Assembly: GCA_030448005.1 (NCBI GenBank)
Contig: JAUJNT010000004.1
Coordinates: 171,373 to 222,381, forward strand
Direction of reading: 5' to 3'
DNA from: Thermoleophilaceae bacterium
Lineage (GTDB): Bacteria; Actinomycetota; Thermoleophilia; Solirubrobacterales; Thermoleophilaceae
Length of the DNA stretch: 51,009 nucleotides
Shown: positions 2,395-7,995 of the stretch, piece by piece
How the letters are laid out: the number at the start of each line of letters is the position of its first letter
How positions within the stretch are numbered: the stretch's first letter is position 1
Notes under the pieces: generated by a model
Told to the model about the DNA's origin: nothing
The model's database searches: none
The model's input: the letters and a program-made list of their open reading frames with translations, nothing else
Position numbers and translations under genes: made by a program

Positions 2395-3204
2395 TCAGGC
2401 GTCGGAGAACTGGCTCGCGGCATGGCTCAGCCTGTCAAGCGATCGACGCAGAAGCCGTGAGACGTGCATCTGCGACACGCCGATGCGCTCGCCGATCTCT
2501 GCCTGCGTGCGGTCTTCGACAAAGCGCAGGTAGAGCACCTGTCGCTCCCGCGCCGACAGGCTGCGCGCCGTAGGGCCGAGAGCGTCCGCCAGTTCCACGA
2601 GCTCGAAACCTTCGTCTTTGCTGCCCAGCGTGTCCGCCAGCGAGGAACCACCCTCCGGATCGGCCGACCACGGAGCCTCTAGCGCCATTGGCCTGTACGC
2701 GCTATTCGCCTCCAATGCTTCGAGGACCTCCTCGACCGTTAAGTCGGCTGCGACGGCCACCTCACGCGGAGATGGGGAGCGCCCCAGCGAGGCAGTGAGC
2801 TCGTCGGTCACGTCTTGGACTGCCATCACAGCCTCCTGCACCGAGCGGCTCACGCGCACGGTCCAGCCCCGATCCCGGAAGTGGCGCTTGAGTTCTCCCT
2901 TGATCATCGGGACGGCGTAGTTGACAAAGGGTCCGATGTCCGGTTCGTAGCGGTCGAGCGCCTTTACGAGCGCAACTGCGGCGACCTGCTGCAGATCCTC
3001 GGTGGGCTCGCTCGAGAACCGATGGCGCGCCGCCAGGCGGTGCGCCAGCGGGAGGTAGCGCTTGATCAGCTCCTCGCGAGCCCGAAGATCCCCAGCGGCA
3101 TAACGGCGAAACAGCGTGCGCTCACTCGGTCGGGTGCCGGGAACCGGGCGGCGAGGTCGGAGCAGGGGCTGATACGAGCTTCGCAGTCGTGAGGAGGTAT
3201 GCAT
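2395..3204 (-). CDS. RNA polymerase sigma factor, SigB/SigF/SigG subfamily
   Basis: This 269-residue protein has the full group 3 sigma layout. Region 2 spans about 28-100 (LFRRYAAGDLRAREELI, then LPLAHRLAARH and the core-binding DLQQVAAVALVKALDRYEP). Region 3 is at about 118-190 (VQEAVMAVQDVTDELTASLG). Region 4 is at about 212-262 with the helix-turn-helix TQAEIGERIGVSQMHVSRLL. Members of this subfamily drive general stress or sporulation regulons in Gram-positive bacteria. They are usually held by an anti-sigma/anti-anti-sigma switch, but no such partner is encoded next to it. The stress-type genes around it (GlsB-like, DUF2795, ferritin-like remnant) fit a general stress role. That role is an inference. 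A GGGAGAG precedes ATG 3204 by two bases. Confidence 0.93.
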   Translation of the reverse strand: MHTSSRLRSSYQPLLRPRRPVPGTRPSERTLFRRYAAGDLRAREELIKRYLPLAHRLAARHRFSSEPTEDLQQVAAVALVKALDRYEPDIGPFVNYAVPMIKGELKRHFRDRGWTVRVSRSVQEAVMAVQDVTDELTASLGRSPSPREVAVAADLTVEEVLEALEANSAYRPMALEAPWSADPEGGSSLADTLGSKDEGFELVELADALGPTARSLSARERQVLYLRFVEDRTQAEIGERIGVSQMHVSRLLRRSLDRLSHAASQFSDA

Positions 3205-3585: not shown

Positions 3586-6132
3586 TCAGGCGACTTCTCG
3601 CGCACGCCTTGCAAGCCGTCCGCCTGGCCATCCGCTGTGGGGACCGACGAGCGTGATGAGTGCGGGTACCAGCAGGGTGCGGACCAGGAAGGCGTCGACC
3701 ACAAGGCCGACCGACATGGTGAAGGCAAGCTCGCGAAATGGCCTCAGGGGCACCAGCGCGAGGAGAGCGAACGAAGCGGCGAGCACGAGCCCCGCGATCG
3801 TTATCGGAGTCGCGGCCCGCTTGCCGGCGACCGCGACCGCCTCCCGCAGCGGCCGCCTGCGGGCCTCCGCCCAGATCCGGCCCGCGAGAAAGACGTTGTA
3901 GTCAGACCCGAGCGACACGAGCAGCACGGCCGCCGCGAAAGGCACGTAGTAGGTGAGCTCCCCGTAGCCGAGCAGACCCTGAAAGACATAGCTCGCGAGC
4001 CCGAGCGAGGCGAGCAGCGCCAGCAAGCTCGCCGCCAGCAGGTAGAGCGGCGCCACCAGCGCGCCGAGGAAGACGATGAGGATGACGAGCACGACGCCGA
4101 GTGATGCAGGGGCGATCCGTCCCAGATCCTCGACCGTGCCATCGACCGTCTCGGCGACGAGGGCCGTATCGCCGGCAACCCCGACGCCGGCGCGTGGAAG
4201 CCCCGCAGCGGCGAGCAGCTCCGGCAGGCGCCGCTCGAGGCGGCGGAGGATCGTGATGGCTCGGGCGCCAAGCGGGTCGCCTCGCAGCACTACGAAGAAG
4301 CGCGCGGCAGCACCGGTGCGAGAGTAGACCGCCCCGAACTCGCGCTTGACGGGCTGGTCCGCGGGCCCGACCACCTCCGCCAGGCCCGGCTGGCGCTCGA
4401 GCAGTCGCTGAAGCTTCACGAGCCGATCGCGCTGTTCGACGATGCCCGGGCGCTCCACAATCAGTACGGTCGGCGAGAGGATCCCCGGTGTGAAGCCGCG
4501 GCTCGCCTGTTCGTAGGCTTGGCGGGCCTCCGAATCGGGCGGTAGACCACGGATCAAGGGGTTGCCGAGGTCGAGGCGCAGCACGCCGGTGGCCGCCACC
4601 GCCAGCAGTGCGGCCACGACCGCGGCCGTGAGTGCGGGGCGCTCCGTCGCGACGCGTAGCGCGCGCGAGCGTCGCGGACGCGCCGGCCCGGCGGCAGGCG
4701 AGTGCATCACTTCCTTGCCGGCCTGCGCCTCCACTCCCGGCCGGCGTGGCCAGAACAGCGTCCGACCCCCCATAGCGAGCAGGGCGGGGATCAGCGTGAC
4801 GGCCACGAGCAGCCCCAGCAGCACAGCCATCGCGGTGCCCGGACCGAAGGCCTGAAAGAAACCGAGCTTCGCCACGGCCAGCGCCGCGCTGGCGCCCACA
4901 ACGGTGATCCCCGCGGTGACGATGATCGGCAGGAGCTCGGCAGTGCCCCGCATCGCCGCGAACTTCGCCTCCTCCCCTTCCGCCATCCGTCTTCGGATCC
5001 GCGACAGGAAGAAGATCGCGTAGTCGGTCACGACGCCGAAGAGGAGTACGACGATGACCGGCTCGACCTCGCTCGGTACAGAGACGCCGATGCGCTGGCC
5101 GATGTAGGCGATCAGCCGGATCGAGACGAGGTAGGCGATCGCGACGGCGGCCAGCGTTGCGAGCGGCGCGCCGATCGCGCGGAAGTGAAGCCCGACGACG
5201 AGCCCCACGAGCAGGATGGTGCCGAGCTCGACGAGCGGCAGTGCCTCCTCGATCTCCTCGGCTTGCGCCGCGCGTGCCGGGATCGCGCCGGTCACCCCGA
5301 CGAACCCGTCGTAGCCCGGCTCTATCCGCCGCTCGATGAACCGGTCGGCCAGGATCTCCCGGTCGGTTTGGCTCACCTCCGGCTCGAAGAAGAGGTAGGT
5401 GATGGCGGTGGTCGAGCGCTCGCGTGAGAACGGCGGCTTGCCGAAGAGGTTGCTGATCGGAAGCGCGCCCGCGATGCGCCTCAGCGCGGGGTACTCGCCC
5501 TTGTTCAGCTTGAGCGCGCGGCGGGCGTGCCCGGCGAGCTCCGCGCCAGGGAGGCCGTCGGCGTCTCGCTGGACGACCAGCGTGCGGCTCAAGAGCGGAA
5601 AGCGGAACAGCTCGCTCGATCTGAGCTCGGCGTCGATCGCCCCGGCGTTGTTGGGCACGAGGTCGCCGAGCGCGCCGACCTGGGCCTCGCGGATCGTTGG
5701 CAGGCTCAGCGTCAGGAGCACCGCCGCCGCGATCCAGAACGCGATCACCGCAAAGCGGAGCTTCACGACGAGCCATGCGGCGAGTCCCCACGCGCCGGGC
5801 GGGCGGTGGCCAGGGGAGCTTCGCGCGGTTGGCGAGCGCCGGCGGGTGACGACCTTGGCAAGCAGCGGCTCGAACCCATCCGCTCCAGAGTCGGGGGCCA
5901 GCTCCGATCGAAGCGCTTCGAGGAGGCGCTCGAAGCGCCGCGAGAGCTGCTCAGGATCGGCCCCGCTGGTGGAGGCGATCTCCTCGACTTCGAGCGCGTG
6001 GTGGTAACGCAGCTCGAGCAGCGCGCGATCGGCGGGGTTCAGACGCCCCAGGACGGCGCGATGCTTGCGGGAGCGGAGGGCCGCTCCAACCGAGTTGTCA
6101 GGGGTCGAGGAAATCACCGATCGCGCCCGCAA
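3586..6132 (-). CDS. MmpL/RND-type transporter with N-terminal sigma-region-4-like HTH
   Basis: The product is about 848 residues. Residues 29-78 (LNPADRALLELRYHHALEVE, then EIASTSGADPEQL and a closing helix) match sigma-70 region 4 in pattern. There is no sigma region 2. After a disordered linker the protein becomes a two-domain MMPL transporter. Its first helix is near 125-143, followed by a large outside loop, a helix bundle with the TDY pair in GVVTDYAIFFLSR, a second loop, and a second bundle with SDY in SLGSDYNVFLAGR. The Asp-Tyr pairs are the proton-relay signature of MmpL proteins. Such transporters export lipids or hydrophobic compounds by proton antiport. The start overlaps the upstream gene by 35 bases. 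A GTG at 6117 is an alternative start, and a GTG before KLRFAVIAFW would omit the HTH. This is the last gene of a three-gene overlapping operon. Confidence 0.88.
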   Translation of the reverse strand: MRARSVISSTPDNSVGAALRSRKHRAVLGRLNPADRALLELRYHHALEVEEIASTSGADPEQLSRRFERLLEALRSELAPDSGADGFEPLLAKVVTRRRSPTARSSPGHRPPGAWGLAAWLVVKLRFAVIAFWIAAAVLLTLSLPTIREAQVGALGDLVPNNAGAIDAELRSSELFRFPLLSRTLVVQRDADGLPGAELAGHARRALKLNKGEYPALRRIAGALPISNLFGKPPFSRERSTTAITYLFFEPEVSQTDREILADRFIERRIEPGYDGFVGVTGAIPARAAQAEEIEEALPLVELGTILLVGLVVGLHFRAIGAPLATLAAVAIAYLVSIRLIAYIGQRIGVSVPSEVEPVIVVLLFGVVTDYAIFFLSRIRRRMAEGEEAKFAAMRGTAELLPIIVTAGITVVGASAALAVAKLGFFQAFGPGTAMAVLLGLLVAVTLIPALLAMGGRTLFWPRRPGVEAQAGKEVMHSPAAGPARPRRSRALRVATERPALTAAVVAALLAVAATGVLRLDLGNPLIRGLPPDSEARQAYEQASRGFTPGILSPTVLIVERPGIVEQRDRLVKLQRLLERQPGLAEVVGPADQPVKREFGAVYSRTGAAARFFVVLRGDPLGARAITILRRLERRLPELLAAAGLPRAGVGVAGDTALVAETVDGTVEDLGRIAPASLGVVLVILIVFLGALVAPLYLLAASLLALLASLGLASYVFQGLLGYGELTYYVPFAAAVLLVSLGSDYNVFLAGRIWAEARRRPLREAVAVAGKRAATPITIAGLVLAASFALLALVPLRPFRELAFTMSVGLVVDAFLVRTLLVPALITLVGPHSGWPGGRLARRAREVA

Positions 6133-6628
6133 GGCCCTTTCCTGTCCGGAACCCCTCGATCAACGTTTGGATTGGCAGCGCTGCAACCGCCCCGCGGAGT
6201 AGCGACGCCTGGGCGTCTGACAGGCTCCCGGCACGCTCGGCGTCCGCCACGGCGCGCTCGAGGCCGCTGCGGACGGCGCCCTCGAGCACCTCCTGACGGA
6301 TCCTGTGCTCGCGCGCGAAGCGCTCGCGGCCCTCCTTGCTTGTCAGTGCCAAGGCCAGCTCCTCGCGTGTCACCCGCAGTCTGCAGGCGGCGCCGTCGAG
6401 CGCGGACAGCAGTAGCTGCTGGGACACCTCCTCGAAGCCCGCCGCCGGCGTCGGCGGTCTTGGCTTGCATGGATCAGCTACCTCGAGCGGCTTGTACGAG
6501 CCGCCGCCGAGGGCGATATAGGTGATCACGAGCGCCGCAGCGGCCACTGTGACCACCGGCAGTGCGAGCGACGCTCGACGCGGCCTCTGCGTTGGCTCCC
6601 CCGCGTTCAACTGCGCCCCGGCCGCCAT
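6098..6628 (-). CDS. membrane-anchored protein of unknown function
   Basis: This 176-residue protein has one membrane helix at about 23-42 (ALPVVTVAAAALVITYIALG). A predicted outside part with a Cys pair (DPCKPRPPTP and AACRLRVTREELALAL) and mostly helical, charged sequence follows. I do not recognise a family. The pattern TREELALALTSKEGRERFA with helices after it resembles small helical domains but no named one. The gene overlaps the exporter gene upstream by 22 bases and the transporter gene downstream by 35 bases, so the three are probably translated together. A role as an accessory or regulatory subunit for one of the two transporters is an inference from position only. Confidence 0.75.
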   Translation of the reverse strand: MAAGAQLNAGEPTQRPRRASLALPVVTVAAAALVITYIALGGGSYKPLEVADPCKPRPPTPAAGFEEVSQQLLLSALDGAACRLRVTREELALALTSKEGRERFAREHRIRQEVLEGAVRSGLERAVADAERAGSLSDAQASLLRGAVAALPIQTLIEGFRTGKGLAGAIGDFLDP

Positions 6629-7995
6629 CTAAGGAGCAGGGATGGAAGGACCAGCAGCGCCAGCCCGCCACCGGCAAGGAACGACCGGCTGAAGGCTTGG
6701 GTCGCCGCTCGCCTGACCTCGTCTGTCAGCTCGTCGCGCAGCCGCGTCAGCGGGCCCCGCTCCTCCGCATCGGCATCCAGATCCCTGAAGGCGGGACGGA
6801 GGTTCGGCAGCCGGCCGTCCGCGCGCTGCACGCGCTCGGCAAGCCGCTCCCCGAGCCGGATCTTGAGGCCAGGGCGCAGGCGCGCGTCCAGCAGCAGCGC
6901 ACTCCCGGCTCTCTGGGCAGCGACCTCCTGATCATCCAGGTCGGCGGTGAAGAGCGGGGTGAGCAGAGCCAGTCCGAGCACGACGCCGGCATGCCTGGCA
7001 GCGATGCTCGCGGCGGCGCGCGGCGCGGCCGGGCCGTCGCCCGCGAGCGCACCCTCCGTGAGCGCCGTGAGCGTCAGTCCGAGGCCGAACCCGATCAGCA
7101 GCTGGGGCGCGACCGTCCAGGCGACGTGCGCGCCCGGCAGGAGGCCGAGCGCCGCGAGCCCGCCGGACACCGCGACCGCACCGGTCGCCGCCCGGAGCCG
7201 CTCACCGCCGATCCGGTTGCCGAGCGGCGCGGTGAACAGCGCGGCGATCGGCATGATCGAAACGACGCCGGCCGCCTCGAGAGCAGAGAGCCGCCAGCCC
7301 TCGATCAGCATGACGACGAGCAGGAAGAGCGCTGCCGTGAGAGCTGCGGAGATCAGCGCGAGTGCGACAAGAATTCCAAGCGGGCCGCGGTCGCTCGCAG
7401 AGCGCTCGCGTGGAGCGCTCGGCAGATCACGGCCGAACGCGCCGAGAGCCAGGAGCGGGACCTGCGCGGAGAAGATCGCTTGCCAGGACAGCAGCTCGGT
7501 CAGAGCGCCGCCAAGCGCCGGGCCCACGGCGGCGCCGAATATGCCCGCGCCGCCCCAAACCCTGATCGCACGCCGCGCCTCGAGCTCGGCGCAGATCAGC
7601 GCGAACGCCGCCGCCACTACCGCTGCGCCGCCGACCGCCTGCGCGCAGCGGGCCGCTACGAGGACAGTGAGTCCCGGCGCGAGCGCGCACACGAGCGACG
7701 CCCCCGCGAAGACCGCCAGCCCGCCGAGCCACGCGGGCGCCACGCCGCGACGGCGGACGAGTGTCGCGGCCGGCAGTGCCGCCAGCGCCAGCACAAGGTT
7801 GAAGGAGATCAGCACCCACGCGACCTCGGCCACGCTGGCGTCGAAGTCGCGGACGATATCGGGCAACGCGAGAGTCACGATCGAGGAGTCGGCGAGCACG
7901 GCGGCTACCGCCACGGCGACAAGTCCCACGCGCGCGCGGGCTCTCCCTCGCCCCCTTGGACGTACCACACCGGCGTGAGGACTCGACTCAGTCAC
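6607..7995 (-). CDS. DHA2-type MFS drug exporter
   Basis: The product is 462 residues with 13 to 14 predicted membrane helices. It opens with the DHA2 (EmrB/QacA-like) signature: LADSSIVTLALPDIVRDFDA in helix 1, then VAWVLISFNLVLALAALPAA. The helix 5 motif appears as GAAVGPALGGALTE. A loop of about 110 residues near the C-terminus (roughly 350-440) separates the last two helices, the place where QacA-like proteins also have an extra outside loop, although this one is long. These proteins expel toxic cations or hydrophobic drugs using the proton gradient. It is the first gene of the operon. The start is GTG 7995 with no clear ribosome-binding site, so the start is uncertain. Confidence 0.88.
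   Translation of the reverse strand: MTESSPHAGVVRPRGRGRARARVGLVAVAVAAVLADSSIVTLALPDIVRDFDASVAEVAWVLISFNLVLALAALPAATLVRRRGVAPAWLGGLAVFAGASLVCALAPGLTVLVAARCAQAVGGAAVVAAAFALICAELEARRAIRVWGGAGIFGAAVGPALGGALTELLSWQAIFSAQVPLLALGAFGRDLPSAPRERSASDRGPLGILVALALISAALTAALFLLVVMLIEGWRLSALEAAGVVSIMPIAALFTAPLGNRIGGERLRAATGAVAVSGGLAALGLLPGAHVAWTVAPQLLIGFGLGLTLTALTEGALAGDGPAAPRAAASIAARHAGVVLGLALLTPLFTADLDDQEVAAQRAGSALLLDARLRPGLKIRLGERLAERVQRADGRLPNLRPAFRDLDADAEERGPLTRLRDELTDEVRRAATQAFSRSFLAGGGLALLVLPSLLLRWRPGRS

Follow-up and report, generated by a model that had tools for sequence, protein, structure and literature searches.

A sigma region-4-like domain ahead of an MMPL-type exporter in a Thermoleophilaceae bacterium, and related domains on other envelope proteins of the family

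Introduction

The stretch of DNA analysed here (the window, 51,009 nucleotides from a Thermoleophilaceae bacterium) carries on its minus strand an open reading frame, 3586..6132, in which a helix-turn-helix (HTH) like that of sigma region 4 is followed by a short linker and an MMPL exporter. Is this one protein, is the N-terminal domain really of sigma type, how did it come to stand there, and can it have a role on an exporter?

Results and discussion

An earlier note on this DNA, made from the letters alone, had read the ORF as an HTH that is followed at once by an exporter. Its coordinates, strand and frame are correct and the frame is uninterrupted, with a short linker between the two parts. 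The product has 848 aa from TTG 6132 or 843 aa from GTG 6117, and the next in-frame start is GTG 5766. The HTH (5896..6090, minus strand, residues about 15-79, core RLNPADRALLELRYHHALEVEEIASTSGADPEQLSRRFERLLEALRSEL) is identified by PF04545 and TIGR02937, a local profile and a residue table; the linker (5812..5895, minus strand, residues about 80-107) is without clear homology, and the MMPL/HAE3-type RND exporter body (3589..5811, minus strand, residues about 108-848) matches PF03176 with an E of 8.6e-78. Over residues 26-100 the coding bias is strongest in the frame of the fused ORF (+11.2, +4.7 and +4.6 per 25 codons), with -5 to -11 in the other forward frames; the antisense mirror frame is positive too, as it is throughout the MMPL part. 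Among the in-frame starts only the one ahead of the HTH has a Shine-Dalgarno-like sequence, and TTG 6132 is preceded by AGGAAAGGG.

The fusion would be an artefact if an assembly chimera or a sequencing error had joined two genes, or if translation began at GTG 5766. The genome is a draft, and a start at 5766 would give MKLRFAVIAFW, which resembles ordinary MMPL starts. That codon lacks a Shine-Dalgarno-like sequence, however, and its use would remove AAWLVVKL, a segment common to the ortholog in G002, a genome of the same genus (AAWLIVKLRYAVVAFWI). There is no frame change at the junction, and both flanks belong to an operon also found in the genomes G226 and G255, so that this is no chimera of distant contigs. 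We consider an artefact very improbable. When the two are aligned, the G002 protein begins near residue 104 of the window ORF, where its RPPG pairs with HRPPG, and the window gene thus looks like a full MMPL gene of which the start has been replaced by a sigma-like segment. A single polypeptide is the simplest reading of the ORF, and as far as the sequence goes we hold it with high confidence.

The genes on the minus strand follow each other in the order MFS, p176, fused ORF and SigB-type sigma gene. The first gene of the MFS-p176-MMPL operon codes for a DHA2/EmrB-like MFS transporter (6607..7995, minus strand; PF07690, E 2.4e-25), and the second, p176 (6098..6628, minus strand), for a protein with one N-terminal TM segment, an extracytoplasmic domain and no Pfam match, and it overlaps the start of the fused ORF. 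A full SigB/F/G-type sigma factor (2395..3204, TIGR02980, E 7.7e-72) is encoded on the same strand 381 nt downstream of the fused ORF. Rfam gave no match anywhere in the window. Homologs of p176 occur in 87 of 249 genomes of the class, mostly adjoining or fused with an MFS gene; none of 20 p176 neighbourhoods shows a sigma domain, and the idea that this upstream gene provides one elsewhere was rejected.

That the domain is of sigma region-4 type is indicated by several profiles. PF04545 (Sigma70_r4) matches residues 27-75 with 21.8 bits, against a curated cut-off of 24.1; the search with the N-terminal part alone that the earlier note had proposed bears this out (E 2.3e-4 with the first 121 residues), and the trimmed domain gives 1.3e-4. 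The NCBIfam sigma70-ECF model TIGR02937 matches with an E of 1e-6 over model positions 102-165 of 165, which is the region-4 end only. A local profile of true sigma region 4 gives 47.9 bits, the best of 2000 shuffles 13.6. The fused ORF opens just before the domain and, as previously claimed, has no region 2, sigma models being matched at their region-4 end only; for these reasons we do not regard the product as a sigma factor. A single-sequence structure model of the domain is all-helical (pLDDT 81), with weak Foldseek/VIA matches. The domain probably has a stable sigma-4 fold.

The identity with any ECF region 4 is about 33-41%, with all core positions kept. The contact positions are given in what we take to be RpoE numbering. 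Arg is kept at the sigma positions 149, 173, 176 and 182, and the domain agrees with true sigma factors at 149 (R), 150 (Y), 174 (hydrophobic), 176 (R) and 182 (R); where RpoE has F175 and S172, the domain has E and R. The region-4 pattern had been called complete, which is true of the core but not of some promoter-contact positions.

The exporter body is that of a complete MMPL/HAE3 RND exporter, with MMPL domains, about 12 TM segments and two TM Asp-Tyr pairs (residues 370-371 and 744-745). The nearest solved structures are MmpL3/4/5, with E down to 1e-34. Like these exporters the window ORF has the MMPL domain and both Asp-Tyr motifs, but known MmpL proteins, judging from Pfam matches and the papers found, have no sigma-4-like domain, and the ORF scores far below the cut-off of the MmpL3 equivalog HMM. 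MMPL proteins have their N-terminus in the cytoplasm. In neighbours, the related domains stand without exception before the single TM segment of proteins with an extracytoplasmic other end, which places these domains in the cytoplasm as well. The window HTH must then, we infer, lie on the cytoplasmic face, in line with the earlier note.

Strong orthologs of the MMPL protein were found in 26 genomes of the order, 23 of them, besides the window, with a readable N-terminus. They can be aligned with the window ORF from about residue 106-112, and none of the 23 has a sigma-4 domain at its N-terminus, so that the N-terminal form of the fusion is known from one genome only. The earlier note had listed as a refutation that relatives lack the HTH owing to a wrongly joined frame; the 23 do lack it at the N-terminus, but the frame in the window is not misjoined, and the extra segment lies between p176 and MMPL with its coding bias in frame. 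The MFS-p176-MMPL order is present also in G226 and G255, which belong to two other families of the order. In G226 the MMPL gene starts 15 nt past the p176 stop and is not extended; the MMPL protein of G255 has, at the same junction, about 80 additional N-terminal residues that include hydrophobic segments and are unrelated to the window domain. Comparison with these two shows that in this lineage the sigma-like segment was inserted between p176 and MMPL in an already existing MFS-p176-MMPL operon.

Most of the other orthologs instead have before the MMPL gene a small two-TM partner gene, which is absent from the window genome. The partner has a conserved cytoplasmic tail (L022:9888-10496, L023:9408-9992, L024:3536-4165 and L027:11155-11781). 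An N-terminal match in genome G300 (query 24-754) was rejected, being the cytoplasmic tail of a separate upstream two-TM gene read through its stop. The MMPL ortholog in G002 (L022:6197-9886) carries a C-terminal DUF2254 membrane domain (E 9e-100).

These comparisons also speak for the main rival explanation, which is that a fragment of sigma region 4 came to be joined to the start of MMPL in a rearrangement and is a tolerated passenger without a role on a working transporter. The 23 other orthologs do without the domain, the different extension in G255 means that the junction tolerates additions, and there are other add-ons, such as the DUF2254 in G002. A donor of the window domain was not found in the class, the phylum, relatives or plasmids, as the best identity was only 41%, and a derivation from the ECF factors of the genome itself was rejected, since no match in G000 besides the domain itself was obtained at E <= 1e-3. 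All core positions are kept at this distance, however, and decay would erase them unless the event was recent and the donor is unsampled. The divergence from every ECF region 4 seen (identity at most about 41%) with the fold pattern intact rather suggests that the domain is being kept up. A silent fusion is also less easily reconciled with an independent sigma-4-like addition in another ortholog and with a family-wide habit of such fusions, and we put its probability well short of even.

The independent addition is found in G019, where the MMPL ortholog (L023:6809-9382) is 63% identical and has a sigma-4-like domain at its C-terminus, residues 753-820, in frame and with coding bias. A search with profile A1, built from the window domain and 11 relatives and run over 232 genomes of the order, found it at G019:C21:49919-50125, just behind the MMPL ortholog. 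The 70 loci with MMPL orthologs contain no third fusion of this kind. The earlier note had proposed to look for the same domain order in other MMPL proteins; the N-termini gave no case, the C-termini this one.

In all, the A1 search returned about 40 region-4-only domains in the order. They are present in 23 of the 31 listed genomes of the window's family (E <= 1e-12) and rarer elsewhere, and a search with one member as query found none in plasmid or phage records. The domain is carried by GT2 glycosyltransferases (L171, L172, L178, L221), a PMT-type mannosyltransferase (L216), O-antigen ligase-like proteins (L220, which has two of them, L242, where it is C-terminal, and L215 from the window's own genome, whose called gene gives a weak N-terminal match), L,D-transpeptidases (L181, L223-L225, L232, L233), beta-propellers (L174, L177), oxidoreductases (L217-L219) and RskA-like proteins (L169, L183, L228, L230, L231, L235-L237, L239, L241), the last named from a reading of the C-terminal sequence, with L183 lacking a Pfam match. 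Pfam and NCBIfam recognise this fused set just as sub-threshold sigma region 4. Its profile matches a solved sigma region 4 (SigL, 3hug, E 2.2e-6), and among its best PDB matches are complexes of region 4 with an anti-sigma factor (3hug, 3vep). The hydrophobic core is kept in the set, Arg 149 and 176 are mostly lost and a near-invariant Arg 174 has been gained. The fusion in the window is shown to be one instance of a habit of this lineage, in which region-4-like domains are apparently placed on the cytoplasmic side of envelope proteins.

Some members have features of their own. In G013 the domain is inserted near the N-terminus of an ATP-synthase beta subunit between low-complexity linkers, and the epsilon gene follows (L222:1-1785). 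Two nearly identical tandem copies stand ahead of the O-antigen ligase-like protein in L220:3126-5687. The gene coding for a region-4-only domain, a TM segment and an RskA-like part lies beside sucCD and an aminotransferase gene in several genera (L169, L228, L230, L235), often with a DUF4397-like neighbour, and since its genomic place has been kept across these genera at least this member is maintained.

The window domain itself stands between this set and ordinary ECF region 4, also in the tree. Left out of the model, it scored 44.1 bits on the fused set and 48.3 on true sigma region 4, and 44.1 is above all of 20 sampled true sigma factors (maximum 38.2) and just below the weakest member of the set (44.5). 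The difference between set and sigma score is +24 to +89 for members of the set and -16 to -73 for true sigma factors, one poor row aside. The window domain shares with the set 144 A and 147 E; at the hallmark positions, where the set has S149, D156 and R174, it has R149, V156 and F174. It is thus like the region-4-only envelope fusions of the same order in being sigma-4-like, without region 2 and on the cytoplasmic side of the membrane, and unlike them in its hallmarks and in scoring equally with true sigma region 4. The G019 domain is a member of the set (72.7 versus 35.3 bits) and has S149, D156 and R174. As the two MMPL proteins carry different subtypes at opposite ends, they have probably gained them by separate events.

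One alternative is that the window domain mimics region 4 in a partner switch: it would bind an anti-sigma factor and titrate it, much as NepR is bound by the sigma-like domain of PhyR. The PhyR domain mimics regions 2 and 4, and it is soluble and controlled by a receiver domain; both put a sigma-like fold to use in a protein that is no sigma factor, but the window domain is region-4-only and sits on an exporter. The fused set has mostly lost the promoter-facing Arg 149 and 176 and gained R174, as a protein-binding surface might, its PDB matches include the anti-sigma-bound structures, and pairs of ECF and anti-sigma factors are abundant in these genomes. Against this, no anti-sigma gene adjoins the window ORF, in which the Arg residues of promoter type are still present. 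We find such mimicry improbable.

Our favoured reading, to which we give about even chances, is that of a tethered sigma-4-like docking module: a region-4-only HTH would be held on the cytoplasmic N-terminus of a predicted proton-driven MMPL exporter, where it may bind what region 4 normally binds, that is -35-type DNA, the beta flap of RNA polymerase or an anti-sigma factor. Through such binding the exporter's state or location could be coupled to transcription or to a partner held in common. Because Arg 149, 173, 176 and 182 are kept, binding of the DNA or RNA polymerase type is more plausible for the window copy than for the fused set. The single frame, the coding bias, the start context, the sigma-4 profiles, the G019 domain and the about 40 related domains argue for a docking module; against it are the N-terminal form being confined to one genome, MMPL fusions that differ in subtype and end, the absent hallmarks, the replaced F175 and S172, a close donor that may be unsampled, a structure model from a single sequence and weak fold-search matches. 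A selected function of any kind has slightly better than even prospects, binding of DNA, RNA polymerase or an anti-sigma factor somewhat less than even ones, and actual gene control by the fusion seems doubtful.

Membrane extensions are known from ECF sigma factors (ECF48, ECF52, ECF53; SCO4117; IutY), which keep both region 2 and region 4 (PMC8999054). They resemble the window ORF in having a sigma-type HTH and TM segments in one chain, but they are real sigma factors, whereas the window ORF lacks region 2 and has an exporter with 12 TM segments as its membrane part. Regulators of the ToxR, TcpP and CadC type have a cytoplasmic HTH tethered to the membrane (PMC10269533), but of other HTH families and usually with one TM segment, and the main text of PMC10269533 never names sigma. 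The earlier note knew of no described system of this form; searches of the open-access literature likewise turned up no exporter, and no comparable array of envelope proteins, joined to a region-4-only domain, an absence that weighs lightly as evidence.

Conclusions

It is unexpected in itself that one bacterial family should have joined region-4-like domains, repeatedly and independently, to many of its envelope proteins. It is conceivable, although we think it rather unlikely, that a promiscuous "sigma handle" derived from sigma region 4 has spread in the family on the cytoplasmic side of envelope and membrane-linked proteins (exporters, glycosyltransferases, L,D-transpeptidases, O-antigen ligases and ATP synthase beta), with the MMPL fusion as one case, and such a handle would connect the machinery of the envelope with RNA polymerase, promoters or anti-sigma factors. 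If the domain does bind DNA, RNA polymerase or an anti-sigma factor, transport and cell-wall enzymes would have a direct line to transcription, with no separate sensor.
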